A stretch of DNA of 64,000 nucleotides, from assembly GCA_000827205.1 (NCBI GenBank), contig KN832554.1:2962690-3026689 (forward strand). The letters are read 5' to 3'. Within the stretch, counting starts at the first letter, position 1. Each line of letters opens with the position of its first letter. A program made the position numbers and the translations under genes. The notes below the pieces were generated by a model. The model was not told the DNA's origin and ran no database searches. It worked only from the letters and a program-made list of their open reading frames with translations. This document shows positions 1-51,975 of the stretch, one piece after another. The stretch is from Plicaturopsis crispa FD-325 SS-3 (Eukaryota > Basidiomycota > Agaricomycetes > Amylocorticiales > Amylocorticiaceae).

Positions 1-2831
1 CTCCCAATACCTCCCGTTCTTCGGGGCGGTTGATCAAATATCGGCGGTGGCGAGCTCCCCGTGGAACTAGACGGTTCCGAAGGTGGCCGGCGACGCTCCT
101 CGAGAGATGGTCGACTTGATGTCGCCCTCGGAGATTCCATGGCACGCGAAAAAGAGGGAGATGAACCATCACCTCGCCGCGAGCTCGTACTACTTGCGAA
201 GCGTTGATGAGTAGAGGACTTCCCTTCGTCTACCGACCGAAGTGCAGGCGAGTATCCGTTCGTAGCATTGCCATAACTCGACGTCGGTGGTGGTGCAAAT
301 TGTTCTTGCTCGCTCTTAGTCGCTTTACGAATGCACACCGTTTTTCCGAGTTCCGTGACGCTGGCAGAGACGTGGCTTGCAGCTGCATCGAGTAGACTGA
401 CAGGAGCCATACCTGCACTCTGCGCATGCGTTTTGGACGCCGCAACGAGGTTGCTGAGGGTGGCCTCGGCGCGCTCGCGCAGGGCTCGCAAGGCTTCGGT
501 GTCTACCTCTGCTCGATCCTGGGAGGCACGCCGTTCAAATGCCCGGACATCATCAACAATGGCGGAGACGGCGTTGACAATAGCCTTCATGGGTGTAAGC
601 ACACGCGTCGGAGCATTGGAGCGGCCAGCGGTGAGGAGGGCGTCGACGCCGGAGAGGAATGCGGTGATATGTATGTCGAGAATTGCCCCGTCAGGAGAAA
701 CAGGTAGCTGGTCCTCGCCGTGCGATTTGGGTGCTTGAAGATAAAGCTGAGATGTCGCTGCATGGCAGAGTCAGCATATTGACGGTATGCATAGAATGAG
801 CTGAGCGTACCTTTCAGACTGCGTAGCTCTGTCTTGGCCTGTTCATATTTATGTTTGTACTCCTTCATCTGCAAATCGAGGTTGCGAATGACCGCAAGAT
901 CCGAGTCTTTGGCTGTCATGAGCTCATCATTCCTCCTGGACAAGTCCTCGAGCTCGCTCAGCAAGCCCTCCATGTCAGAACGGAGCTGGTCGATGATCTC
1001 TGCGTCTCCCTATTCGGCGTCGTCGATTTAGCCATAAATTTCGTTTAACGACGAGTTGCGAACGTACCCCGCCTGCGCGCTCCGCTTCGAGCTGCTCACA
1101 TCGATCTCGCAAGATCTGGAGCTCGTCGTCGTCTTCGCGTGATCGTCGAGCCTTGCCCTCCTTCAGGTCGGCAAGTTCTCTCTCTAGTACGCGCATGGTA
1201 TTGCTCTCTGCTTCTGCACGCTACACGAGAGATAAATATTAGAAATAAAACGTTCGGTCCAGAAAGCAAACATACCCGTCGCAAACCAGCAAGTTCCTCT
1301 TCCATTTGTCGGACGCGTTTCTCACCCTCGAGCCACTTCTGTTCACGCTCCTCAACATCCCCGAGATCCCGCTCGAGGCCCGTGATCTTGCTCTGCATCG
1401 TCGCGATCTTGAATTCGTATTCACGGCGCAAACGCTCCTGGTCTTCGCCCGACGCGCTTGCCCCGCGCGCTGCACCGCTGAGTCGTAACGGGCCCGTACC
1501 GCCGTTCGAGCGATCAGACGCGACCGACGCACGTCCAAATGACACTTTGTCGTAGTAATCGTCGCCGCTACGTTCTTCGGCGACCGCGTCGCCCTCGTCG
1601 TCAGATTCGCCGACGCCGCCCAACCGAGCGCGTAGTCCGCTGAGCCCGCTGAGCCCACCAATAGGCCCCGGGCTGTCGCGCTCCCGTTCGTCGAGCGCCG
1701 TACCAGAGCTCTCCCGCTCCCGTCCATACGGTACTTCGATCTCTTCCTCGGCGATAGTGCTCTTGTTCGGGATGATCATCCCGCTCGTCGCCGTTGCACT
1801 CTGAGCGTTCTCGCTTCCAGCGCTGCCGCTCACACTTGGCCGTCGAACGAAGTCGTCTGCGCTGGGCCGCCGTTCCGTGTCTTGCGACGCTTTGCGCCTT
1901 GACGACTCTCCACTTGTACGCCCAACGCCGCCATACGCATCCTCACTACGCCGCCCGCCGTATGTATCCTCACTCCGTCGCCCGCTGTAGGTGTCCTCGC
2001 TCCTTCGTCCACCATACTCTTCTCCGCTGGGCCGCCCACCTTCGCTTGCCTTCCGTCCATATCCACTTCCCCCATACCCGCTATCTCCCGTACGATCTTC
2101 CGGAACGCGCATGGGCGTCTGCTGTCGCGGCGAGGCTGGGTTAAAATCGGGAGAGGGGTAGTCATCGTATGCAGAGCGCGGCGAGAGCGGTGCACTGTCC
2201 GGAGGCTGTTGATACGTTAAACAGAGCCATGTATAGAACAGTAATCCACTCACCTCCTCCTTGAACTCCGGGTAACGTCGAACAAGCTCATAGTACACAT
2301 CACTAGAGAGGTCCTCGAAACGAGATGTCGGGAGTGTCGCAAGTTTTTGGCGAGCCTGATTTCGTTTCGGGTGGAAATCCGATCGAACGGGTAAGAAAGG
2401 AACTAGATCACAGTTAGTAGGGTTGAGTAGGACAACCAAACGGCATACCTTCGTTCTCGCTCGATGAGTTCTTCTTCCGTCTAACGAGTTCGTCGTACAC
2501 GTCCGTGGAAAGTTCCTGGAATTGCTGGCGCGTGAGCCGGGTGAGTTTCTGTCTTGCAGTCGCGCGCGAGTTTGCAGGTGCTAGAGAATCGTCAGCCCTG
2601 ACTCCTGGCACTAGAGAATAGTGCCTCACCTCGTGCGAGGTACGCGGCAAGATATTTGCTGAGCTCGTCAAAATGTGTCCTAGCAATTATGCGAGGATCT
2701 AAGGATGGAACGGCGGGCGCAGCAGAGCCATTGATCGGTCGATACGAGTCGGTACGATAGTTGGATATGCCCGAGAACGCTGTCGGTGTCGGCGACGGTG
2801 CGCGGTTGCTTGCAGATGGCCCGCGTTTCAT
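1..2831 (-). CDS. SPA2: Spa2-like polarisome scaffold protein (3' end off window)
   Basis: Polarity scaffold of the hyphal tip and bud neck; in yeast Spa2 binds formin, Pea2 and MAPK components through N-terminal Spa2 homology repeats. Two such repeats are visible: one with ARQKLTRLTRQQFQELSTDV (about 2550-2480) and one with ARQKLATLPTSRFEDLSSDV (about 2375-2315). A disordered Ser/Arg/Gly-rich segment follows, including a tandem RRSED(T/A)Y(S/G)GG repeat near 2020-1925. Then come heptad-rich coiled coils (about 1450-830) and a more globular C-terminal part containing KAIVNAVSAIVDDVRAFE (about 590-520), as in Spa2 C-termini. The start at 2831 (MKRGPSAS) is chosen because the upstream residues are hydrophobic and look untranslated. 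Introns interrupt both repeats and the coiled coil. The frame stays open to base 1, so the 3' end is missing. Family assignment is firm, exon ends less so. Confidence 0.85.
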
Positions 2832-5436: not shown

Positions 5437-8400
5437 ATGGAGGACGACGCGACAATAGACCGCCTGGTCAATCAGTGCAAAAGTAGCGGTGCGCACTATT
5501 CTACAGCTCTCGCGCTCGCTTACTGAAAGGCGCGCACTCCGCAGATATCGATGTCAGAGTTGACGCAGTCACAAAATTACAAGCCGAGTGTGAAGCAGGG
5601 CTAGAGGTCTGTCGTGTCCTCTCTGGTTGTGCTCGTGTACGATCTAAAAACGTCGTGCTTGTGTAGATAACAGACCCTGAGCCTCTCATCTCTGCCTTGA
5701 AAACATGCCTAAGGACGCCCAACCAACACTTGACGACCGCCACGCTTTCCGCCCTGCCACCACTTATACCTCTCCTCATTTCACGGAATGTATCGCAACC
5801 CCAAATGCCTGTTGCCTCTGCTTCATCCTCCACTTCGTCGACTAGCCCGGGTTCCGTGGTAGACGCCATGACACTGCGACAGGTCTTGATGGCGTTTCTC
5901 CCCGCTGGAGGTGTCCTTGAACGCTTGGGTGACAGTAGGGAGAAAGCCAAGGAGAAAGCGCGTGAGACGCTAGTAGTCATTGGTGGACTAGCATATCGCT
6001 CTGCGGCTCCGGGATCGGTGTCAAGCAAGAAAGAAGGGAAAGGTCCCGAAACACCGATCATGTTGTTCGAAAGGTTCCTCAGGGAGGGTGGGCTTGGTAG
6101 TAAAGTGTGGAAAGTGAGAGAGCAGGTAAGAGAGTCAATGCGCCTGTCGGGCTTAACAACACTCATTTGTCTACTAGAGCATTCTGACTTTGGTTCATAT
6201 CCGCCGGGCACACCACCTTTTTCCCATTCGTCCTTACCTTCCGCAACTCGTAGATGCGCTCGAGGACACGGACGCTCACGTACGCGAATGCGCGCGCCAG
6301 TCGGTCGTTGAACTCTTCACGGGCCCTGGCGTTTCGGACGCCGCGCGCGCAGATCTGAAGAAAGAAATGACAAAGAAGGGCGTGCGTAAAACTATAGTAG
6401 ACGGCGTTCTATCCAAAGTCCTGGCAGGTGCGAGCTACCCGCAGAGCGAGGGTAGCGAGAACGGGGATGCCGCAGGACCGAAGGCGTACGTCCCGCCAAG
6501 CTTGGCATTGCAAGGGAGACGCCCCACAGGTGGAACGAACGCGGGTGGAATAGCTAGGACGGTGAGTCACGGTAGCGTGAGGGACTTGTCAAGACCCGCC
6601 AGTCGTGCAGCCGGATCTCCGCCGATGCCGCCGCCGCCCGAGACCTCTGGTCCCGATGTTCGTCCTGTCTACGTGAGTTCTTTCCTGCAATACCGCGGAA
6701 ATAATAAATATCAAGTGGCGAATTTTTCAGATTGCATCGACTCGAGATCTGGAGCACGAGTTCGAAGGGATGATCAAAGCTTTTGAGGTTTGTGCATTTG
6801 CTATGAATTGAATTCGGGTAGAGGCTCACCGTCATATAGGGCAAAGAAACCGAACACAACTGGCTAGCCCGTGAACAGTCCATTCAAAGGGTGAGGGGGA
6901 TGCTTAAGGGTGATGTGCATGTGCGATACACAGACGTCTTGCTTGCCTGTCTGAAGGAAAGCTTCATAAAAGATTCCTTGAAGGCCGTGCGTCATTTTAT
7001 CCTCTTCCTTGATGAAGATAGATGATAAACGAATGTTTTGAATATAGTTGGCGAGTTTGCGGACAACTGTTTCTGCTAATACCGCCTCTCTCTACGCGGA
7101 ACTTGCAATTGCCTTGGGACCAGCACTCGACCCATGGACAGACATCCTGCTAACAAACCTGCTCAAAATGGCTGGTTTTACGAAGAAAATAGCGGCGCAA
7201 CAGTCCCAGGCTTCGGTCACCACCGTCATCACCAATACCTCCGCCCAACCGCGTATAGTTCTCCCTCTACTGTGGAACACGATTCAAGAAAAGACGGTTC
7301 AAGCGCGGGCATTCGCAGTCGCACATGTCAAGAACTACATCGAAGTGCATGGCTCCCGCTCAAAACATGCCATCGAGGGCTCGGGCGGCCTCGACATCCT
7401 GGAAAAAATGATGAAACGTTCCCTCGATGACGCTAATCCCACAGTCCGCGACAGTGCGAGGGTGTGCTTCTGGGTATTTGAGGCAGTGTGGCCTGAGAGA
7501 GGAATTGTGATCCTCGATGGCCTAGGCACACATGCGCGCAAGGAGCTCGAAAAAGTATGTCCCAATCCAGAGCGTGCTGCCGCGGTCCTGCCACCCGCTA
7601 CCCCGAAGACCACGAAGAAAACCAGTGTGTCCGCCGCGATTGCTGCCAGCCGTGCAAAGGCTAAAGCAATTGCAAATGCTCCTCCGACATTGAGGCACCA
7701 GGCTACGTCTACATCACATGCGGTACGCGCTACGTCGCCCCCTTTGAAGCGTGCTCCATCACCGTCGGTGTCGAGGAGTCCAACGTCTGGCCCGTCGTCG
7801 CCCAGCAGGATTCGTTCCTCTCTTTCCTCACCCCCAAGTCCCCCTCGGTCTCGTGTAGTCTCTAGCTCCAGTGTCGCTCGCTCAACGAGTAGCGGAGCCC
7901 CGGGTACACACTCCCGCACTGCATCAGGGAACATACGTTCGGCATCCCCATCTCCCGTCGACCAATCTACGTTCCGCCGCCGGACCTCGTCTCCGCTTGC
8001 ATCGCCCACTGGCCCGAATCGTCAATCTGTCATACATACCACCGGTTCAGTACCATTGCATACGAACGGGGTCCATGTCTCACCGACCCCGCGACAAACA
8101 AATGGTCGATCTTCTGTGGCTATCCCTGTTCCGCCGCGGCATTCGCTATTTAACGGGATGCAAGGTACAGGGGACGATGAATCACTCCTCCTTGCTACTG
8201 CAATACCCATACCCGAAGACAGCGACTCCGATAATGACGACTCGGTCAATCTTATGTCTTTCTCGACTCCCTTCGAGCTTTACCCGCCCAAAGTTCATAG
8301 CGCTGGTAAAAGTTCCCCAGCACCGCTATCGCCTGCTCCCAAGTCTACATCCCAAATAATGTCCTCCCCCAGGTCTGCACCAGGGGTATCGAACGCTTTA

Positions 8401-9970
8401 TCAACTGGCTCCCCGCCACCTGGGCAGTCCGAGCCTATCATCGAAGATGCTATGCGGGCGCGTGCCGAGCAGGCAGAGAGCGCGGCTGATCGTCTCCTAG
8501 AGCTCGTAGACCCCGAAGAAGACGGTCAGAACTATTCGACAATCCCGTCATCCCTTTTAATGGGCAGCGGACGTGGGGCGCCAAAGTCAAGCACTAAGGC
8601 TGCGCCAGCGCCTGTTGTTCGAGCACATGTTCTCCCCCCTGTGACGCCAATCAACAGGAATGCGCAGATTCTGAGGCAGGCTGCATTGTTCAAGAATAGT
8701 CCGGCCCAGAACGGGTCATCCGCTTCTCTCATGAACGTCCTCAAAGACCGAAGAGACGAAACGGGATGGTGGCTAAAGCGCATGTCGAGTGAGTGTCTAC
8801 GCTGCATTTGATGTACTAGTTCACTGATACTCACTGTACTAGTCGTTGAGCACGGAACACCACTGAAGGCTGTCCAAGCTGAAGACCGCGTGCAAGAGCT
8901 ACAGACCTATATTGCCGCTTTGGAGAACGGCGATGCAAGCATCCGTGTTCTCCAGAAGTTGGCTCTCCTATGCATAGAGAACCCTGTCATGGAACCGCCC
9001 TCGCCGACGAGTTCAGTGTATACACCCGCGAGTCCTTCGCCCTTCATATTAACGTCAAGAGCGCTTCCTTCACTCCACCCCGACATGTGGACAAATGACA
9101 AAAGTTTCGAACGGCTATTCAATGCTCTGATCAAATTCTTGGATCCGTCTCAGGTATTTACCCCAAACCAATCAAGGCTACAGTTGACATTGACAGTGTC
9201 TTCATAGGCGGAGGATCAGCTCGAGCACGGTCTGATTGTTCTCTGGGAGATGCTAGAAAACCAGGCGCCGAACATCGAAGGACGCGAAGCGGATATCTTT
9301 TCCGTTCTGCTGAAAGTCCGTTATTGCAGTAAGCTCAACGTAAGCCTCTATCTCTGCTCTTTCTTGCGCCAACTGTGCTCAACGTTGCCCATGTCAGGTC
9401 CTTGAGGCCACCAATACCATTCGGGATGCCCTGACAGCCCGTATCGAACCTGTGTACGGGCTGACGACAATGCACGCCAGCCTCCGGGCATTCCATGCAG
9501 AGGCTCCTCCATCCTTCTCTGATGCTGACGCGAAGGCAGCGACGTATGCATTTGGGCTCGTCGCTCTTGGTAAGTTCATCCTGAGGCTTCCAGACGAGAT
9601 TTTGGAGGAAGAACTTCCCCGTTTGAAGGCAACGCTCATTTCGGTTCGTGACTTACTTACCGATACCGGATGAATATTTTGACTGATGATGCGACAGGCG
9701 CTCAACGACAAATCCTCCTTGGTTGTGCGTGAATCGGCCGCGGCATCTATCATCGCGGCTCAGCTCGTCCTCCGTGACGAGACGCACCTCTTCACCCTCC
9801 TTGACGGTTTGGCAGACGAAAAGAAGAATCTACTCACGTACCTGTTCGACAAGCACGGTGCGCGTGGGTTGAGCGCTGCGCCCGGTCCGTCTGACATGGA
9901 CAAGCTCGAGAAGGAGATGCGGCGCCTTGACACCAGAACCAGCACACCCCCGAGACCGATTGCAGCATGA
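5437..9970 (+). CDS. STU1: CLASP family microtubule-stabilising protein Stu1
   Basis: CLASP proteins bind tubulin through TOG/HEAT domains, rescue microtubules and are needed for spindle integrity. The first exon begins MEDDATIDRLVNQCKS; the next start with ADIDVRVDAVTKLQAE and ITDPEPLISALKTCL, a HEAT-type helix pair. A CLASP_N-like TOG array follows, containing PYLPQLVDALEDTDAHVREC (about 6230-6290) and PLLWNTIQEKTVQARAFAV (about 7265-7320). A long Ser/Pro/Arg-rich basic linker (about 7560-8760) resembles the microtubule-binding linker of CLASPs. C-terminal HEAT repeats run from about 8850 to the stop (TPPRPIAA). Introns are short and dense in the 5' and 3' parts, while a single exon spans roughly 7050-8790. 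Length and domain order match fungal Stu1. The exact start rests on the Kozak-like context GCCATGG. Confidence 0.88.
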
Positions 9971-17178: not shown

Positions 17179-17378
17179 ATTTTGTACCTGGTTTTTGTTG
17201 CAATTCGGAGAAGTAGTGTTGGTCGGCGTTGAGTACAGGTTTTGGTGTCCCCGATCCAATCTAAGGCTATTGGCGTCTAAGCCGTGGGAATGCTTTATTT
17301 CTATCTACTGCCTCCGAGATTTTTCTCTGCATTGCACACGGACGCTCTGTATTTTATCTATAATATCTAGGCCTGAAC

Positions 17379-20046
17379 ATGGCTCCCCCCGAGTCCAAAA
17401 AAACACAGAGGAAGCGGAAGCAGGCCCCCGATGAAGTCGTCGAGCAACCCACACCATTTGCAAAAGCCGTCGGGCTGGAGATGCTCAGCGACGAGGAGGG
17501 ATCGGACGATGAGCACGCCGCGTCCGGCTCCGACGACGGGGAGGTCGACGCATTCCCCGAGATCGACATGGGCAGCGACAGCGAGGACGACGATTTCGAG
17601 CCGGAGCCAGAGTCTGACAGTGGCGAGCAGGAGGGAAGCGATGAAGAGGACACCGACGACGGGGAGACATCCGCCGACTCGGACGAGCTGCACATATTCC
17701 CCAAGTCCAAAATGATCGTCTCGGACATCACCCGGCAGCCAAAACGCGTTTACCCCGAGATCGAGCCAGATTACGACTCGGATTCGTCTACAGAAGATGT
17801 ACTGTGCTCCATGTATTCTCCGGAGACGCGAAGAACTCACGCGTTTGTTTTATGCAGGTCCAGAACCGCGTGGGGAATATACCTATGCACTGGTACGATG
17901 ACCTGCCGCATGTCGGGTATGATGTTAATGGCAAGAAAGTGCTGCGGCCCGCACGGGGTGACGAGCTGGACAAGTTCCTGTCGACTGTTGAGGACCCTTC
18001 TGCATGGTACGTACTCGATTCATTTCTCTGCTCACGGATGGTGTTCACGCCAAATCTGCAGGACATCTGCGTTCGACAAGACATCCCAGATGGACAAACC
18101 GCTGTCGAACGAGGAGCTCGAGATTATACGGCGACTGCATGCAAACGAGGTGCCCGACGCGGAGTACGATCCATACGAGCCAACCACAGAATGGTTCACA
18201 GGAAAGGGCAAGGAGGAGATTATGCCCCTTTCCGGCGCCCCCGAGCCCAAACGCAGATGGGTGCCCAGCAAGTGGGAAAAACAAAAAGTCAGTATATGTG
18301 GATATGATAATGCCAGAGCTACATCTTATCATGTCTTCCCAGGTCATGAAAATTGTACGCGCCATTCGCCAGGGCCGCATCCTGCCCTCCAAACCCAAAA
18401 CCTCGTCATCTCAACTCCAATTCTACTCCATCTGGTCCGAGCCCTCGACCTCCCACCCGCCGCCGCTCCCCGCCCCAAAGCCCCGGCTTCCCACGCACTC
18501 CGAATCCTACAACCCACCTGAGGAGTACTTGCCCACAGACGCCGAGCGCAAAGAATGGGAAGAAACGGAGCCCGAGGACCGCGAGCGCGACTACCTGCCG
18601 CAGAAGTACGGCTCCTTGCGCCTGGTTCCCGCGTTCGACGCATTCATAAAACAGCGCTTCAACCGGCAGCTGGACCTGTACCTCGCCCCGCGGATACAGC
18701 GCACGAAGCTGCGCATCGACCCGGAGAGCCTCGTCCCCAAACTGCCGAGCCCAAACAGCTTGAAGCCGTTCCCGAACTACCGTAGTCTGCGGTTCGTGCA
18801 CGATGGTGGCCGCGCGAGGTGTGTGGGCGTCAGTCCGGACGGTGCGTGGGCCGTGAGCGGGGACGAGGACGGCGTCGTTAGCTTGTGGGAGGTCAATGTC
18901 GGCCGCGAGGTCAAGCGGTGGAAGTTTGACAGCAAGATCGGTGCGGTTGAATGGTGTCCGAGGTTGGATGTCAGCTTTTTCGTTGTCGGCCTGTGCGTAT
19001 CTTGGACTGTTTGTCATTTGCGGACGCTAACACCATTTTTCTAGTGATGACACCCTACATTTCATTATACCCCCGCATTTACCGCCGGCTGTTTATACTT
19101 TAACCTATGCCTTGTTAGCACCTGCGACCCTCCCTCCCGCACCCGCTACGCCCTCTCCCATCCAATGGACCACCGCATCGTCCGCCACTTGGTCCGTCGA
19201 TCTACCCATTCTGACGGTCGAGCTTCCGCCTTCGTCCGGGCTGTCGAAACAAATAACATGGCATCGAAGGGGCGACTACTTCGCCACCGTTTGTGCGTCA
19301 ATCACCTTGTTTTTCTTACTGCGGGCGTTGCTAATAATGCGGTGTAGCGAATAGCGAGAGCCAGGGTGGTGTTTGGATACACCAGATCAGCCGTCGTCAC
19401 TCGCAAGCGCCATTCAAAAAGATCCGGGGTTCAGTCCAGTTGGTCCTGTTCCACCCCACGAAACCTAATTTCTTCGTCGCCGTGCGTTGCCCCATGCCAG
19501 TCCTACTGATTTCCTTTTGCTAAATCGAGTATGGCTGCAGACGCAAAGATATGTCCGGATGTACAATCTCTCCGAGCAGAAGCTACTGAAGACGCTGACC
19601 CCTGGCATCAAATGGATATCGTCGATGGATGTGCATCCTTCCGGCGACCATCTTATTGTTGGCGGGTATGACCGAAAACTGTGCTGGTTCGATCTCGAAC
19701 TCAGCGACAAGCCGTACAAGATTCTTCGGTGAGTCCACGTTGCGACCTTCCATAGCGATGTGCACTCTAATACGTGAACAGGTATCACACGCGGGCGATA
19801 CGATCGTTGCACTTCCACCCGACGTACCCCTTATTCGCGTCGTCGTCAGACGATGGGTCAATACAAGTGTTCCACGCGCGGGTGTACAACGACCTGATGA
19901 CGGATCCGCTGATTGTGCCACTCAAGATTCTACGTGGGCATACCGTGAAGGACGGTCTCGGTGTGCTTGCAGTACGGTGGTGTAACAAGCAGCCGTGGCT
20001 GGTCAGTGCAGGGGCTGATGGCGGCGTTGCTGTATGGTGTAGCTAG
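17379..20046 (+). CDS. ERB1: Ribosome biogenesis protein Erb1/BOP1
   Basis: Nucleolar WD40 protein of the PeBoW complex (Nop7-Erb1-Ytm1), needed for 27S pre-rRNA processing and 60S assembly. The N-terminus is basic, then strongly acidic (about 17480-17700: long Asp/Glu/Ser runs). The BOP1NT domain follows with [54 protein letters not shown] and [14 protein letters not shown]. Then come [19 protein letters not shown] and seven WD repeats, the first with [20 protein letters not shown], the last with RCWNKQ-like text ending [11 protein letters not shown]. About seven introns of 45-65 nt are read, each restoring the frame. Family identity is certain; the small exon borders near 19040 and 19500 are less so. 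Confidence 0.93.
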
Positions 20047-25533: not shown

Positions 25534-26239
25534 TCATCGTCTGCGTTTTGACCGTCCAGCCTTTCTCCTGCCCGCAATGCCTCCCTGCCGATTAACGCCT
25601 GTATGCTTTGGTTTCGGGACAAGGCCCTTCGATGCACGCCACTCCTCATTCCGAGAGTTTCGTGGGCCGTGCGTGGATATCCGTTGCGACTTCTCAGTGG
25701 ATGCATCAAGATCCATCGAATCTGGAAAACAGAAAACAGAGGCGTTAACACATGAACGTCAACAAAACATCGGCAAAGAACTCACCTGCTTGCTGTTCGG
25801 TCTGCGCAGCGCCCTCTTCTTCTGCAAAAAAGACAAGATGAGGTCAATGATCAGATATAACCAATCAAGACGCCCAGCAAAAACCACGGAGGACATCGTC
25901 CCCAGCGATTCCATGCCCTGCCTTTAAGCACCGGCTCCTAATGCCGTCCGAACTCCACTCGCGAGGACCGCCCAAGGCGCCCTCCATGCTCTCTGCCGTG
26001 ATGTCTGCAGGGTCTAAGAGACCGAGGACGGTAAACCAGGACCAACCTGGTATCTCTTCTGCACCCTCTCCTTCGGCGTCCGGTAACGCTACATCGCCCT
26101 CCTTATCCCTCGCCGTCACAGAGGTGAGCTTCGCGTTCAGTCGTGCGAGCCGTGCGGCCTCTGTCGCTGCATATATGCCATCTTCACGCTTTTTCGAGCG
26201 GAAGGAACGTTTGACCTTGGATCTCATTGATTTGGCCAT
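25534..26239 (-). CDS. DUF2423 nucleolar protein (yeast YBL028C / LLPH like)
   Basis: Begins MAKSMRSKVKRSFRSKKRED followed by GIYAATEAARLARLNAKL, the signature of the DUF2423 family of small basic proteins related to yeast YBL028C and animal LLPH, which are thought to act in ribosome biogenesis. The middle is acidic and Pro-rich. The last exon encodes MDLDASTEKSQRISTHG..., then HTGVNRQGGIAGRRKAGRSK, ending in an Arg/Lys cluster typical of the family. Two introns are read (about 25720-25785 and 25820-25870 or nearby); the border after the first exon is uncertain, because that frame also runs on to 25865. Its leader contains an (ACC)n repeat 22 nt before the start codon. Confidence 0.8.
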
Positions 26240-26260
26240 CGTGCGATAGTGTTTTGTGGG

Positions 26261-26292
26261 GTGGTGGTGGTGGTGGTGGTGGTGGTGGTGGT
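26261..26292. repeat. (GTG)10 microsatellite
   Basis: A pure GTG run of 32 nt on the plus strand. On the minus strand it is (CAC/ACC)n, lying 22 nt before the DUF2423 start codon, so probably in the 5' UTR. Confidence 0.95.
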
Positions 26293-26742
26293 AAGGAATG
26301 TAGAACGAATCTCAGTCAGCGCCGCAGCCCCTTGCTGTGGCGGCGCAAATTTTTTCCCCGGCCGCGCGCTAGCCACGTGGGAGAGACTCGAGCCTCCGAT
26401 CCGAGACGCAATATCCGTCGACGCGGATTTGGACCAGCATTGAAGCAATTCGTATTATCGACATTCACTTTCAGGGAAAATCATACTACGGTACGCGTAC
26501 ACGACCAGTACACGGAGGCTAAGCATGATGTCAGGTCTCAAAAACTGGGTAAATGAGGGCCTCAATCAATCTTACTGGTAGCAATTATTAATTTCAGGAT
26601 ACAGCAAAAAGCAACAACACACTTCCAAACCACAACATCTCCATCCTCGAGCGTCAAGCTTTTTGGGTGTACACCAGGGAAGTCTGTTTGCATGCCTGCG
26701 CAGGAAGCAGCATCCAGACTATGGTGCCAGGGTGCAAGCCGA
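26293..26742. other. Spacer upstream of DUF2423 gene / downstream of Sm-F
   Basis: 450 bp between the microsatellite and the Sm-F stop. Likely the DUF2423 promoter plus the Sm-F 3' UTR. No gene seen. Confidence 0.4.
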
Positions 26743-27229
26743 TCATTCTGGCGGTGCCTCCCTGTATTGGAACAGATCAGGTGTCAGCAAGGGATAATAT
26801 GCACAGTGCGCGAAAAGACTTATTATGTAGAGAACGTTGTTACACCTGAGACAGTCAGATCGCGTCAGCACAGGAGCAAGCTGATTTGGATCGTTGAACA
26901 CTCACCGAATGAATACCTCCCCCAGTGCACCGTTTGACACTCCTTCCTGGTATTCCTCCGTGTTGGCAAGCTAGATATATAGGAGGATTGAAAACGACGA
27001 TCAGACGATAGAACAGGGATAATATAGCCGATCGCATGCAGACCTGGAGGTTCATGTATCCATCTGTACTGACAAGGAAACCCTTGTACTCTAATCCCCA
27101 TTTTAAGCGAACGAATACGGGCTTGCCCGTGAGCTCCTGCATGAACGGTTTGGGGTTGACGGGGTTGACCTGCGCGATCTGTCAGTTCACAGCATATAGC
27201 GAGCGCAAAATATAACGCACAGTAGCCAT
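26743..27229 (-). CDS. SMX3: Sm-F core snRNP protein with probable AT-AC intron
   Basis: Subunit of the heptameric Sm ring on spliceosomal snRNAs. Five exons give 80 residues: 27229-27221, 27169-27044, 26970-26906, 26845-26824 and 26763-26743. The product reads [20 protein letters not shown], then [60 protein letters not shown]. Both Sm motifs and the usual length are present. The first three introns are GT-AG. The fourth (26823-26764, 60 nt) gives the expected YIR terminus only if it starts ATAAGT and ends in AC; a CTGAC branch-like site lies about 20 nt from its end. Alternatives are retention (in frame, 20 extra residues) or a GT-AG variant that yields a long unrelated tail. The gene is divergent from NC2-beta (181 bp). 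Confidence 0.88.
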
Positions 27230-32625: not shown

Positions 32626-35395
32626 ATGCTTAGGTTTGGCGCGTATCGTCTTTCCCGCAGGATACACGCCACTGTCTTGGAGCACCAGCATCGTGCTTCA
32701 AGCTTAACTCTCTCCAAACGGTCCCATGCCACGAATACACCGCCCCCGGGCGTTAATGCGAACGCTCACCTGCGCACAGACGCGCACTGCGGTCAGCAGC
32801 TGCTCAACTCGCGACGTGGCGTGCTTGGACTGACATGTCATCCTGGCAGCACCGTACCCAAAGCGTACACACAACTGCGGCGCGCTTACAGCCGCTGATG
32901 TAGGATCGCGCGTTGTGCTCGCTGGATGGATTCTCCCTGAGCGGTAATCATATCAAGTTCCTTGCCCTAGATGTCTGGCTGAATCCTCCGGTCAGCAAAG
33001 TATCCAAGGCTATGTCTTTCTTCCCGATCAAGGATTCTTTTGGCACGACCCAGCTCCTGGTGCAGAAAAATCACGCTATGCCAGCCGCGTTAGCGCTCGG
33101 AGACGTACCTATCGAATCGACCGTGCTGATCGAGGGCGTGGTACGACTGAGGCCAGAAAGAGACCAACGGCCCGTCAGTTCACAAACGTTTGACTGGCAA
33201 TGCCACCGAATAATAACAGAACACCTTCCCTAGGACTCGACTGGACAGGTAGAGGTTCATGTTGACAGTTTCACATTGCTGAACCCAGCCCTACGAGAAC
33301 TGCCTTTCGTACCTTCTGATGCCCAAAACCTGGTATGTGGATTGCTACGTCTCTCACGGAAAGCTAATGCGTTGCTGAACAGGCAAATGATGACTTGCGG
33401 GCCCGTTATCGGTACCTCGATTTACGCCGCACTGTGTTGTCAGAGAATCTCCGAAAGAGAAGTCAAGTCGCACGCGTCGTACGCAATGTGCTCGACCAAC
33501 GAGGTGCGGCAGCATGTCCCATGCTTGTGCGACTCAATGCTAATGCTAATCATTGCATTGTTGCTGCTCAGACTTCCTTCAAGTTGAAACACCCATGCTC
33601 CTCAAATCTACGCCAGAGGGTGCGAGAGAGTTCCTTGTCCCTACGCGCTCCGCCAGTGGAGCAGGGCCACTATTTTATGCTCTTCCGCAGTCCCCACAGC
33701 AGCCTAAGCAGCTGTTGATATGCTCAGGCAGCGTTGATCGGTATTACCAATTGGCGAGATGCTTCCGCGACGAAGACGGCCGAAAGGACAGACAACCGGA
33801 GTTCACACAGATTGATCTTGAAATGGCGTACGTATCCTGGGGGCCGACCGACCCTTCTGACGGCTGGAGGATCGGGGGCATCGAGGTCCGCGAAGTGATA
33901 GAGGAACTCATCCGAGAAGTATGGGCGAGAGTTGAAGGCGTCACTCTTGCAAACAGATTCAAGGTGATGACTTATCATGAGGCTATGACACGTGTGAGCT
34001 TGTTATTTTATGTGTATCCTTTCACGGTAATAAATCGGTTTTCGTACGACCCTAGTTTGGTTCAGATAAGCCCGACACGCGCTTTGGTCTCGAGGTCAGC
34101 AAACTCTCAGCGTGCTGACAAGTTACGGTCTGATTCAACCCAACGAAAGATCAAGCAAATAGCGCACCTATTGCCTCCCAGTACTGCTACAGCTTTGGAA
34201 AATATTGGACAGATTGCGGAATGCATCATCCTACGACCGGGGCAGGAGCCTGATTTTTTCACCGCAGGGCAAACTCTTGAACTCCAAGATGATGCAGACA
34301 TAGTCAGTGTCCACACTTTCGACAGAAAGCTACGCTAAATACCTTCCCAGGAGCGAATCGTTATCAATGATGATAATATCTCGACGTGGATACACCGCAG
34401 CCGTATCCTTGGCGAAAGCACCCATGAGGGATCATGCTATGGAATCAATGAAGCACTCCCACTAGACGTTGGGGATATAATCTGGCTCAGCCGTCGGCGG
34501 CGATCACCCGAGGTAAGTAAACCTCGCCAAAGTCATTGTCTACGCGTCATGAATGAGCACACCAGGGTGGAGCGACTGCTCTGGGACGACTCAGACTTCG
34601 CTTGTCGGAAATTGCACAGGCCCGGGGTTCGTGGTCTCCGCGTCACTCTTGAAAGACAATAGTACTGACACTGTTTGCAGGAGATTACACTCCTCCTGCA
34701 GCGCCTCACTTCCTTTGGGTGACTGAGTTCCCTCTCTTCACGCGTGCGGACGCAGACAAAGACTTCCTGGCGCACGGCCGGTGGAGTAGCTCTCATCACC
34801 CGTTTACGGCACCAATGTGGGAGGACATTGAAGCTATGTATAACGGCCACGTCGAGACGGTCAGTTGCCGATACCATCCCAATGCCGTACATACCGACTT
34901 AGCAGAATTCCACAGGTCCGCGGGCAGCATTACGACCTCGTGCTGAACGGCGTGGAGATTGGCGGCGGGTCTGTTCGCGTGCACGACGCGGCAATGCAGG
35001 AATATATATTCTCCAACGTCCTGCAGGTGCGCCTTCTTTGCCTCGTACCCACCTTCTAACACCCGCTTATGGGAGCACTCAACTCTCTCAGCTGGACGAT
35101 ACCGAGAAGGCGTCTTTCAATCATCTCCTGCATGCCCTGAAATGCGGTGCACCTCCTCACGGTGGTATAGCCCTAGGTGGGCAGCTCTATTACATCTGTA
35201 CATGTGACCCAGCTGGCTTACTTACATGGAACCCTCCCAGGCTTCGACCGCCTCATGGCCATTCTATGCAAGACGCAGTCCATCCGGGACGTCATCGCGT
35301 TTCCGAAAACTGGCGCCGGAACCGACCTACTCTTCCAAAGTCCAGCCTCCGTCGAATCCAAAGTGCTAGAGCAGTATGGTATCAAACCCCAGTGA
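32626..35395 (+). CDS. MSD1: Mitochondrial aspartyl-tRNA synthetase
   Basis: Class II aminoacyl-tRNA synthetase of bacterial type. A basic leader ([20 protein letters not shown]...) free of Asp is the likely mitochondrial presequence. It is spliced to [20 protein letters not shown] with WILPER, then [20 protein letters not shown] (anticodon-binding OB fold). Motif 1 region: [20 protein letters not shown]. Motif 2: [20 protein letters not shown] with [10 protein letters not shown]. The bacterial-type insertion region carries [13 protein letters not shown] and [12 protein letters not shown]. Motif 3: [20 protein letters not shown] with RDVIAFPKT. It ends LEQYGIKPQ. About nine short introns each restore the frame. 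The FRDEDxRxDRQ and RDVIAFPK blocks fix the specificity as Asp, organellar type. Confidence 0.92.
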
Positions 35396-40705: not shown

Positions 40706-43700
40706 ATGTCACACCCATCCAAGAAGAAACGCGTAGACGAGGACCCCGATTCTGCCCAGAGACCGGTGCAGCCGCAGAGGCGGAGAGTGTGGCGGGCCTG
40801 CGAGAGCTGCAGGTGTGTATTTACTAATCTCCAGCTTTTTGCGTCGCTATCGCTGACGGCTTCATGTTTTTTGTCAGGCGGAAGAAGATCAAGTGTGACG
40901 GGAACGAACCTACCTGTACGCGTCCGCTCATCTGACCAGAATCCAAGTATTGACCGAGGGTTTACAGGTTCGCAATGCTCGACGTCTGGCTCTCAGTGTA
41001 CTTGGCTTCAAACCAAGGACAGAGCAGCTCTTAGCAGACAGTGAGTGATGCACTCTACCTTGCGAAGAATAGGTTCTGATGAGAGTTACTTTTAGTTACG
41101 TTCAGGAGCTGGAAGCTCGACTAATTCAGATGGAACACATATTCGGCCAAATCGCTCCAGCTATCGACATTGATAGCTTGCCAGCTTCTGCTAAAGCTCT
41201 ATTTGCTGGCTCGTCCACAGGCTCTGGTACAGCAGGGAATGCAGAAGCTTCATCATCCATAACTGCGTCTGCGTATTCTGCACCCAGAAACGCCGGCTCG
41301 CATTCACCGCCACAAAGTGGTTCATCCCCGCAGGTCAAGGTTGAAGAGGACGAAGTCGAATCTTCGGGGCAATTGGCTCTCGACGAACATGGACACATGC
41401 GGTGGATAGGACGCTCGTCGACCATGACGCTGATACAGAATTTCAAGGCCCTCACCACTTCACCGTTGAACCGGGTGTCTCCCATGGAGGAGGACCCACG
41501 CGCCCCCGGACCTAGCGTCAACAAGCTCTACTTCCCAGCATCAGTATTCTTTGGCAAAGTCCATGCTCTGCCCGGACCCGAAGAAGTCGAATATCCTGAG
41601 CGAGATTTAGCGGATAAACTAGTACGCCATCTTCTCTCACCACATGCATTTCTCTTCCTTGTTAACGACCTCTATCAGGTCGACGCGTACTTCTCGCGCT
41701 TCCACTTCCTTATGCCTGTGATTGACAAACCCTCGTTCATGCGGCAATACGCCACATTGATGGACAACACGCACGACATAAATATGGCGCGGACACATAC
41801 CGCGTTTATTTCTCTCGTCTTTGCCGTCTTCGCGTGCTCGGCCCGGCTGGTGGACGATCCACGATTAGAGGCAGAGGACCGTCTGGACGACGGCGGGATG
41901 GGTATGGTATACTACGAGCGGTAAGCAATCCTAGTGCATTCATGGACTCCATGCTGATGCGACCTTTTGTGCAGCGCTTTAATTCTACATTATATTAGCC
42001 ATGCTTCCATTCAACCGGAGCATGTGCAGTGTTTCATATTGATGGCTTCCTTCCTGTGTTCTGTGAATTGTCTCCCGCAAGCATGGCTTCTGGTCGGGCA
42101 AGCTGTTCGCACCGCGCAAGATCTTGGCTTCCATGTAGGTTCATTCCTTGGACACTGTACCATCACTTGTGCTAATGTCCGCCAAAACGCAGCGCTCACC
42201 GCGGCGATTACTTATCACAAGCATCGAGAAGGAGACACGGCGGAAGATTTGGTGGGGCGTATACTCCCTGGATCGAATGCTTGCGCTGTCTCTCGGCCGT
42301 CCCTTAGGCATAGAGGATGCCGACTGCGACGTCGAATGGCCCGTTGACGTCGACGACGAAGAGCTGCCGGAGTACTTCGACGGCGCCCAGCCTCAGCGCA
42401 AATACCCGTCTCTCATGACCGGATATATTGCGCTGACGCAGCTGTATCAGATCGCTGGACGCGTACTCCGTGAGGTCTACGACATCGAGCTCTGCAAAGA
42501 CCACCTGGAGGAACAGAAGAAGGCACAGCTGCAACGCACGGTCGAGGAACTGGACAGCCAGCTGAACAAATGGTGCGATGACCTCCCCGTAGTGTTCAAA
42601 TCCGAACCGGTAAACGAGAAACAAGTCTCGATGGGCGCTGTGCTCTGCAGCCATTACTACTCTGTTCTGACCACGCTCCACCGGAATTTCCTCCCCGTCA
42701 AACGGGATCAGCCCGCAGCCCCCAAATCGACAGCCAAGGCGGTATCCTCTGCCCGTTCCTGCATCCGATTGGCACCGTCGATCAGGAACGTCGTGCCTCC
42801 CTCCCATCACCTCGCTTTCTTCATTCAGCACCTATTCAGCTCGGCTGTCATCATCTTGCTCTATGCCATGCACGCCACCGACCCTCGAGCTGCCAATGCT
42901 GCCATGGAGGAGGCGAGAAATTGTCTCGCCGCGTTGGAGACGTGGGTCGGCTTTTGGCCGGGAGCCTACAAGTGCAAAGAGCTTTTGACAGACCTGGCGA
43001 ATACGGCGTCCGAAGCAATCAAGACCGCGCAAAGCGGCCAGCAAACACCTACTGTAACTTCTACCCCATCCTCCGCCGCACCTCTAGAGCGGCGACGGTC
43101 AATCACTGTATCAACCCCCAGCCCCCCGAGTTCGTCTAGAGTCATCAAGAACAAACCGCGACGCCCTAAATCCAGAGATCCCAACGCTCCTACAAGACGA
43201 CCACCTGTTTCGGGGCCCTATCGCACAGATCGTGAGTTTCTTATACCTTCGCTTTGCAGACAGCGCTGATTTTCCTCCCTAATAGCCCAAAGAGCGCGCT
43301 CCACGTCCCGCAAACGCGGTCACGGAGAGACGGACGGGTCAGAGGAGCCCAGTCTTATGTCATCATACCATAGCATCTTCACAAGTCCAAATTCCCTACG
43401 GTCTAATCTCAGCAACCATAGCTCCCCTACCTCTGTCGATCTCCCGTCCCCGGCCATGGCCTCGCTCGAAATACCCCAGGAATCAAGTCCACGGCTGGTG
43501 CCAAATACCACAACATTTAATTACCATAATTCTAACTCGACACTATCGTCCCAGCCTAGCACGTCCTCCCAATTCGACTACCAGTACGGCATCCCCCAAC
43601 AACTGCCTAACATTTCTAGTGGGCACCAATGGCCCGGCAACGGCGACGGCGATCAGGATGGCATGGACATATACTCTGGCTCGCAGCAGGGCGGGCTGTT

Positions 43701-49663: not shown

Positions 49664-50411
49664 GGTGGTCGAGTGCTTGAACAGACTGAGAGAGACGCCC
49701 ACGGGAAATTTCGACGACGACAGCGACCGTGGGAATTGTGCATCGGAACTCCGCGGACTTTTCTCGCGGTGCTTTCAAGTGCTTTCATCTTGCTCTCTGC
49801 TTCGCCCCGTTACACTGACGGCCTCTTCAGAATCTCTGCCTCCAAGTTTGCAAATTTATCCGCCGGTCGACCTGTCTATAGTAAAATACGAGGAAATGCC
49901 TTACAAGGATCTATAGATGTACGCGCCTTGCGGATAGCTATGCCTATGCTTAAGCCTTATGCACCTACTATCGCTGACCAGATTTTTTGGTGAAGAAATC
50001 ACAGATTGGGCCCGCTTGCTCTTTGAGGTTGCGATGGGGCCCCAGGTTGCATCTCTACCGTCTTTTTCTCGGGATCCGAGACATGGCAGACATTTTACAT
50101 CCCACTCCTAGGGTCGAGAAAGCCTGACAGAAAATTTCTGGACATCCTTTGGCATGTCCGCGCGTCGACAACATCACATCGCGCCCGAGACCGTCTCCGT
50201 AGATGCATGACAATGGACACGTGCAGCATCGGTGAGCTGCGCAGCTGGCGAAGGATGTGCACACTGCAAGAGACGTCGACCGACGGATTAGATCCTTTCG
50301 CTTACATAACCGGGCCGATTATCAGATAAAACGCAGTCTAATACGCACTCACTCGGCATCCCCGCACTCGTATTTATCAACAGCCATGGCACTCCCAACC
50401 CCGCAGCCCAA
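49664..50411. other. Spacer inside the inverted pair, right side
   Basis: 748 bp divergent promoter between the small mitochondrial gene and copy B. A TATTTATC motif lies 48 nt upstream of the copy B start codon. No gene seen. Confidence 0.4.
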
Positions 50412-51975
50412 ATGGCGTTCACCCTCCGCCGCCTCAAACATGCTGTCATCGGTCAACCACAAGACCCCCTAGCACACCTCCCCCTCTCCACTGACCCATG
50501 CAGAACATGCGCGGACCCCTGCGACGAAGGCCACGATGAGTACCCCAAACGCTTCACCATCGACACGAGCAGCGACATGCTCGGCTCAGTGAAGCCCTAC
50601 CGCCGCCAAGTCGTCATCTCTACCGGAAAATCCGACTGGGCGTCCGAGGTCACGTTCGAGCCCTCGTCTCTCGCCTGGTACCTCGCTGCTGCTGCGCGCC
50701 CGTCCGTGTCGGCGATGTTGTCGTTGTCGGGGCCTGCGTCGGGCGTGTTCAAGTCGGCGGAGGCGGGAAAGACGTCTATACTTAATGGGTCGCACCATTC
50801 GTTGTCGGAGGAGGGGGAGAAAGAGACGGTGCTCGTGTTCCCGGATTATGTCGCTGTGGAGGACGTCCCACGTACGCGCAAAGGCGCGGACGCGTTATGG
50901 GAGCGCGCCGTGAGCCCGGCTGTTGGACGTGCAGGTGCACCGCCGGCGGATGCGGAGGTAGAGAACGAGGCGAAGATGTGGGTCCTGCCGTACGTCTGTG
51001 TTATCCTGCTCTGTGAGTTGCGTTTTCGCATCGCGTCGCGTCCTGCTCACACCGCGTTGTGTCCTCCTCCTTCGTCATCGCTGCCTACTCACAAGTCCAC
51101 AATTCCCACAGGCTCACACAAACGCCGTGACAACCGCTGCGCCATCGCCGCGCCCAAGCTCGAAGAGGGTGCGTGTGCTCACCTTCTCCTCCCCCTCCTC
51201 CCTCTTCTTCACCGCACGTTTCTCCCTCTCACGCCCCTTACTCATAACCGTCCACCCGCACAGCATTCACCCAAGCCCTCGCCGAACACAGCATCGCCGC
51301 ACACACCCAGCTCGACCCCTGCGCGCCCGACCCGATCCCGCCGCTGCAAGCGTTCGCGGTGGGTCGGTCGGCGGATGATGTTGAGGACGTCGTTCCAGCT
51401 CCGGGGAAGGACGTGGTAGGCGACGAGGAGGAGGAGGAAGAGTTCCACGACGCGCCCGAGTCACACGACAACGCGCCCGAGTCGCACGACGGCACTCCAC
51501 GACATACGCATATCGACGTCCAACCCACCGACCGCACGACAGATGCCCACACCCGCCGCACCGCGTACATAACCGCCCAGTTCCAATCCGCCGCGCGGTC
51601 CGAGCAGGCGCTGATCCTCCGCTGCTCGCATGTGGGCGGGCATAAGTATGCGGGGGTGTGTACGGTGCGTGTTGTTATTTCGCCGTTTCGTTTTTTTCTT
51701 TTCGTCCACCCCTGCCTTCCCGCTTCCCCTTCCTACGCCCTTGCCCTTGCCCTTGCCCTCGTCCTCCCTCGTGCATCAAGACTATTGACAACTGACGCGC
51801 ACACACACAGATATACACCCCCCGCGGCGCAGGCATCTGGTACGGCCGCGTCTCCCCGCACGAGGTCCCCGCCGTCGTGCGCGAGACCGTCCTCGGCGGG
51901 CGCGTGCTGCCCAAGTTGCTCAGGGGCGGGGTGGATTTGGGGTGTTTGAAGGGGGGTGGGGAGGGGGCGTGGTAG
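50412..51975 (+). CDS. Apd1/Aim32-like bis-His [2Fe-2S] protein, copy B
   Basis: Close paralogue of copy A. It reads MAFTLRRLKHAVIGQPQDPL, CRTCADPCDEGHDEYPKRFT, IDTSSDMLGSVKPYRRQVVI, STGKSDWASEVT, then a shorter Ser/Ala loop without the His cluster, VLVFPDYVAVEDVPRTRKGA and WVLPYVCVILL. Spliced to CSHKRRDNRCAIAAPKLEE it has C-x8-C. After an acidic, disordered insert (about 51350-51560) comes RCSHVGGHKYAGVC with H-x3-H, then YTPRGAGIWYGRVSPHEVPA and the end GGGEGAW. First exon 50412-51012; four introns in all, at positions matching copy A. All four cluster ligands are present. The basic N-terminus might be a targeting signal, which would suit Aim32 more than Apd1, but this is weak. Confidence 0.88.

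Follow-up and report, generated by a model that had tools for sequence, protein, structure and literature searches.

A probable U2-type AT-AC intron in the SmF gene of Plicaturopsis crispa

The minus strand of the window (the whole stretch of DNA analysed, 64,000 nt) carries a gene of the splicing machinery, the fourth and last intron of which, judged from its sequence, appears to begin with AT, to end with AC and to be spliced as such. This raises the question of whether the 60 nt are indeed an intron with these ends and, if so, which spliceosome would remove it. We consider it probable that intron 4 belongs to the U2-type AT-AC introns and is spliced out by the ordinary (major) spliceosome, given the AT...AC termini, the AAGT in the donor, a CTGAC upstream of the 3´ end, a length like that of the neighbouring introns and a conserved protein end that is obtained only if AT joins AC.

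The SmF gene and the junction of intron 4

The product of the gene gave a Pfam LSM match (E=8.2e-23, 80.3 bits), and the top ten matches in a PDB search were all SmF chains, with scores between 87.8 and 121.8 bits; one further chain labelled SmF, 9if7, scored 61.6 bits and the best LSm6 chain 65.8 bits. On the strength of these matches we assign the gene to SmF (small nuclear ribonucleoprotein F) rather than LSm6, in agreement with an initial sequence-only reading of this DNA. The coding span (26743..27229, minus strand) starts with the ATG at 27229, closes with a TGA whose last base is 26743 and comprises five exons; removal of 27220-27170, 27043-26971, 26905-26846 and 26823-26764 leaves 80 residues ending CNNVLYIREAPPE. 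Introns 1 to 3 are all GT-AG: GTGCGT...CAG (27170..27220, 51 nt), GTCTGC...TAG (26971..27043, 73 nt) and GTGAGT...CAG (26846..26905, 60 nt). Exon 4 (26824..26845), of 22 nt, codes for CNNVLYI within the Sm2 motif, and exon 5 (26743..26763) for REAPPE and the stop. Between them, in phase 0 and separating I from R, lies the stop-free intron 4 (26764..26823, ATAAGT...CCAATAC), the letters of which read ATAAGTCTTT...CCTTGCTGACACC...TTCCAATAC, followed downstream by AGGGAGGCACCGCCAGAATGA.

Searching the genome in full at the protein level gave three matches, namely two exons of the SmF gene and one locus on another contig (C20) that we read as LSm6-like; a single SmF locus was found. In the LSm6-like gene L024 (about 1444-1710), the last intron is GT-AG and interrupts the Val codon within the corresponding GNNVLYI, away from the site of SmF intron 4. 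The SmF gene is followed directly downstream, also on the minus strand, by a frame with a YBL028C ribosome-biogenesis N-terminal domain (25868-26311). Ordinary fungal genes lie nearby, with Pfam matches to GIT_SHD, CLASP_N, BOP1NT, tRNA-synt_2, Fungal_trans and Suc_Fer-like; the neighbouring Pfam-matching frames are at 1099-2580 (-), 7048-8808 (+), 17364-18518 (+), 33550-34335 (+), 42139-43266 (+) and 50310-51416 (+). The Fungal_trans match, a transcription-factor domain, is consistent with a fungal source.

The sequence-only reading had placed intron 4 between 26823 (the A of ATAAGT) and 26764 (the last C of CCAATAC) on the minus strand, and these limits were borne out. It had also held that only an AT-AC pairing gives the expected C-terminus, which we examined in two sets of splice-site pairs. 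The first combined GT-AG, GC-AG and AT-AC ends; its donors ranged from exon 4 to a point 40 nt inside intron 4, and its acceptors reached about 200 nt beyond the stop. The second joined GT/GC donors lying between 26960 and 26775 to AG acceptors as far as 26700, for products ending APPE. Among the GT/GC-AG and AT-AC pairs tested, YIREAPPE was obtained only with AT-AC at 26823/26764, and to this extent the claim held; by inspection, a TA-CA junction shifted by 1 nt gives the identical product. We know of no precedent for TA-CA termini.

The C-terminus of chain 3jcm_W, which we take to be yeast SmF, reads CNNVLYIRELP, close to the CNNVLYIREAPPE end that exon 5 completes. Against this chain, the tail produced by AT-AC splicing scored 41.2 bits, retention 33.9, a GT-AG intron (26819/26762) 33.0, an AT-AG intron 33.0 and a skip of exon 4 17.2 bits, scores that are roughly comparable at best for queries of 31, 51, 51, 51 and 23 residues, respectively. 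The AT-AC tail was the top scorer on 9 of the 10 solved SmF chains compared, several of which are variants of one species' protein. The exception was 8ro0, presumably the C. elegans SmF, for which the AT-AG ending scored 32.9 bits and the AT-AC ending 29.3. Chain 9if7 stands outside this comparison, being present only in the AT-AC tail search, which was run with a laxer threshold. The homology to SmF chains is independent of the splice signals; on these alignments the ends are set by the protein, with ambiguity only toward the TA-CA shift.

Splice signals and wider searches

The donor ATAAGT has a U1-like AAGT at +3 to +6, with G at +5, and its predicted duplex with U1, at +2 to +6, has an energy of -2.5 kcal/mol. 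The corresponding values for the donors of introns 1, 2 and 3 were -1.1, -5.8 and -11.3 kcal/mol, such that the intron 3 donor is the strongest match of the four and the intron 4 donor is weak, yet stronger than that of intron 1; two LSm6-like donors gave -9.7 and -4.3 kcal/mol. The pairing refers to the canonical U1 end; the genome's own U1 was looked for and not found. The CTGAC pointed out in the sequence-only reading (26783..26787, minus strand) is a likely U2-type branch site, its A (26784) lying 20 nt upstream of the intron's final base. Intron 4 also has a CTGAT at 13 nt, and CTGAC is found at 12 nt in intron 1 and at 19 or 9 nt in intron 3. In length, too, intron 4 resembles the neighbouring introns. 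Among 400,000 random sequences drawn from a first-order Markov model of intron 4's own base transitions, 142 started with RTRAGT, 10 of those ended in AC and 0 also carried CTRAY in the branch-site range, a chance figure that serves as a guide only, because the criteria were set after the sequence had been seen.

As had been proposed, intron 4 is divisible by 3 and has no in-frame stop, and its retention would add 20 residues to give 100 aa. There is nothing special in this state, since 9.2% of GT-AG and 10.7% of AT-AC introns in fungi are likewise 3n and stop-free, according to PMC7072748.

Several points count against the U2-type AT-AC reading. The junction rests on homology over a short tail, 8ro0 is matched better with the AT-AG ending, the donor is weak, and retention would be open and in frame. 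In addition, a canonical AG, overlooked by the sequence-only reading, follows directly after the AC (ACAG at 26762..26765, minus strand, with AC ending at 26764 and AG at 26762), forming a good acceptor, CAG/GG, that overlaps the AC.

A count of AT-AC introns was attempted over 264 kb of the genome (200 kb plus the window) with Markov and codon coding models, whose power to tell real introns from mock dinucleotide pairs was too low. With a lower threshold, the donor GTRNGT gave 20 candidates when combined with YAG and between 6 and 13 when combined with one of five mock acceptors; for the donor ATRNGT the yield was 1 with YAC and between 1 and 5 with each of the remaining five. There was no sign of a larger AT-AC class in this 264 kb sample, where the models had low power. 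Relatives of the gene were also sought in other collections. A scan of GTDB genomes returned one SmF locus only (L021) and no fungal relative, and a scan of viral contigs for SmF relatives returned none. Positions 5001-5210 of L021, on a contig filed under a Verrucomicrobiaceae MAG, encode an uninterrupted eukaryotic SmF ending CNNVLYVRASDE, and for this reason the contig is probably a contaminant of the bacterial genome. L021 was of no use as an intron comparison.

Competing explanations of the 60 nt

One alternative, which we regard as unlikely, is that there is no fourth intron and that the 60 nt are translated as a 20-residue insertion that follows the final strand of the Sm fold. The reading frame continues through the 60 nt without a stop, and the mixed codon use of SmF would allow it (20-codon windows of the coding sequence range from -0.52 to 0.43, and the intron frame scores -0.32). 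A score as low was found in 2 of 692 windows (0.3%) of a rough exon set, itself selected for codon bias; the codon bias of intron 4 does not discriminate, since SmF's own exons reach about equally low scores in places. Against an insertion, its limits coincide with the break in homology and with donor-like and branch-like signals (the 0 of 400,000 above), and the tail with the 60 nt retained scored below the AT-AC tail on all ten SmF chains.

A canonical GT-AG intron of 58 nt, from GT 26819 to AG 26762, is very unlikely in our view. It has canonical ends and a donor that would pair with U1 about as well as the AT donor (-2.4 vs -2.5 kcal/mol), at the cost of REAPPE; the 141-residue product would instead acquire a new 66-residue tail without similarity to SmF, and it scored below the AT-AC product on all nine chains matched.

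We would give still less credence to an intron from AT 26823 to the same AG 26762. By consensus CAG/GG is the better acceptor, and 8ro0 prefers this ending, but the resulting 109 residues would include a long, unrelated tail of 35, the score was below that of AT-AC on 9 of the 10 SmF chains, and A at +1 reportedly functions with a final C in yeast. It is just as improbable that exon 4 is normally skipped by way of a single canonical intron of 144 nt (26905-26762), in which the strong intron 3 donor (-11.3 kcal/mol) would join AG 26762. The 22-nt exon would be skipped in frame to give 72 residues, and exactly CNNVLYIR, of the Sm2 motif, would be lost. The skipped tail had matches in no more than three SmF entries, all of yeast type (17.0 to 17.7 bits), and no other SmF locus was found in the genome. 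This form could exist as a minor isoform but would not do as the working protein. Errors in the assembly, with a true intron of the GT-AG type, deserve equally little weight: each end is one letter off the usual base, but two independent errors would be needed at precisely the two ends, jointly making a recognised pair.

As for the minor spliceosome, we searched the genome for two of its snRNAs, U12 and U6atac. A model search, which also missed U1, found no U12 gene, and a U12 pattern search gave one 3-mismatch match versus four for the backwards control. U6atac was not found either, its two 18.1-bit model matches overlapping two U6 genes and its core pattern giving none. Six U6 snRNA genes were over the cut-off (L004-L009, on contigs C15, C12, C13 and C2), and three U6 genes cluster within about 22 kb on C13. 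U1 was not identified in the genome with the Rfam model or with two patterns (9 matches vs 5 control matches each) followed up with Rfam. Because U1 was missed by the same search, the absence of U12 and U6atac is weak evidence. The basidiomycetes include Cutaneotrichosporon oleaginosum. Minor snRNA genes are reported for this one fungus in PMC7072748, and a lone U4atac is known from Phakopsora (PMC2846911); for Basidiomycota, two surveys report no convincing minor introns (PMC10639083, PMC2846911). In intron 4 itself, as the sequence-only reading had stated, the U12 signals are missing: the donor ATAAGTCT does not conform to the U12 rule RTATCCTT (PMC2846911), and the closest branch-like element, CCTTGCT, lacks the branch A of a consensus given in PMC3033335 as like CCTTAAC near the 3´ end. 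The signals are U2-like rather than U12-like, with a U1-pairing ATAAGT and a CTGAC branch site set against a U12 consensus that finds no counterpart, and a U12-type intron, for which the AT-AC termini speak, is extremely improbable.

Overlapping 3´ ends, mechanism and known systems

If intron 4 is a U2-type AT-AC intron, U1 would pair with +2 to +6 of its donor and the A at +1 would pass step one. At step two, A(+1) would work with the final C, favouring AC over the AG just downstream. Yeast work by Parker and Siliciano from 1993 and by Chanfreau from 1994 is said to have found that the two terminal nucleotides of an intron interact in step two, with an effect on which 3´ splice site is chosen, and that an A at +1 functions with a final C; such a pairing would explain the use of AC despite an AG 2 nt away. 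The intron could have arisen from a GT-AG intron altered at both ends, or from an older U12-type AT-AC intron that turned U2-type and was then trapped. The second route is the one that Lin et al. (PMC2831892) put forward for the sodium-channel introns; they argue that U2-type AT-AC introns become trapped, because both ends must change jointly.

The choice between AC and AG sets the frame, since joining AT to AG yields the 109-residue product with its foreign tail. That the skip of exon 4 keeps the frame is no strong sign of design: the AG is part of AGG, a codon that accounts for 87 of the 1,012 Arg codons in the rough exon set, and agreement of frame has a chance of 1/3. The sequence-only reading had suggested that the gene could regulate itself through this intron. 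Retention of introns 1, 2 and 3 would lead to premature stops (after 15 aa, after 92 aa with a foreign end and after 67 aa, respectively), unlike that of intron 4, with 100 aa and none. Intron 4 is for this reason the least suited to ordinary NMD-coupled feedback, which fits introns 1 to 3 better, and the idea of NMD-type self-regulation through intron 4 was dropped. We think that removal of intron 4 is constitutive and regulation secondary. A different possibility, to which we attach a small probability, is that AATACAG is a two-way acceptor, in which the A(+1) of intron 4 would pick AC (80 residues) and the G(+1) of intron 3 would pick AG (72 residues, without the Sm2 core), with a ratio that, the AT donor being weak, would report spliceosome capacity. 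If so, a core snRNP gene could monitor the machinery to which its product belongs and adjust it, with no premature stop codon involved.

Should intron 4 be spliced as proposed, a fungus would have, in one of its own splicing-machinery genes, an endogenous AT-AC intron that the major spliceosome processes. How the first and last nucleotides work together could then be studied where minor introns are reported absent, and, with AC and AG overlapping in different frames, the site would be a natural test of their pairing. We infer that annotation software restricted to GT-AG would predict one of two products, the 100-residue one with intron 4 retained or the canonical 72-residue one without exon 4.

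U2-type AT-AC introns are a rare class already known, and SmF intron 4 would add one example. Non-U12 AT-AC introns have already been tallied in fungi. In the fungal annotations of PMC7072748, the stop-free 3n share of 10.7% corresponds to 46 AT-AC introns, which by arithmetic implies ~430 AT-AC introns in all. A search of open-licence papers, by titles and the starts of abstracts, gave no AT-AC intron in a fungal SmF gene among the matches listed. Among basidiomycetes, the Phakopsora ESTs include 2 "other AT-AC" introns beside 571 U2-type introns (PMC2846911, Table 2), and in C. elegans 59 non-U12 AT-AC introns were found, at least 42 of them thought real (PMC3033335). Both sets share with SmF intron 4 the AT-AC ends without U12 signals or machinery; they are counts, and SmF intron 4 differs from them in lying in a single named gene with its isoforms worked out.

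Two further systems are similar. The vertebrate sodium-channel introns, such as SCN4A intron 21 (PMC2831892), are likewise AT-AC, with G at +5 and U2-like recognition; SmF intron 4 also has A at +4 and T at +6, and, unlike them, lies in a fungal splicing-factor gene and has an overlapping AG. The need for the major spliceosome was demonstrated for the sodium-channel introns, whereas for SmF intron 4 it is deduced. The intron of an Arabidopsis GFP reporter (PMC5473141) is also U2-type AT-AC, with a competing GT-AG 3´ end a few nt away. There, AT-AC use rises from roughly 17.5% to more than 50% in smu1 and cwc16 mutants, and in the smf mutant of the same screen splicing was not substantially altered (PMC5473141). 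The reporter is a transgene with 3´ ends 3 nt apart and the AC outside, whereas in SmF they are 2 nt apart and the AG is outside. By analogy, these systems make it plausible that SmF intron 4 is a U2-type AT-AC intron.
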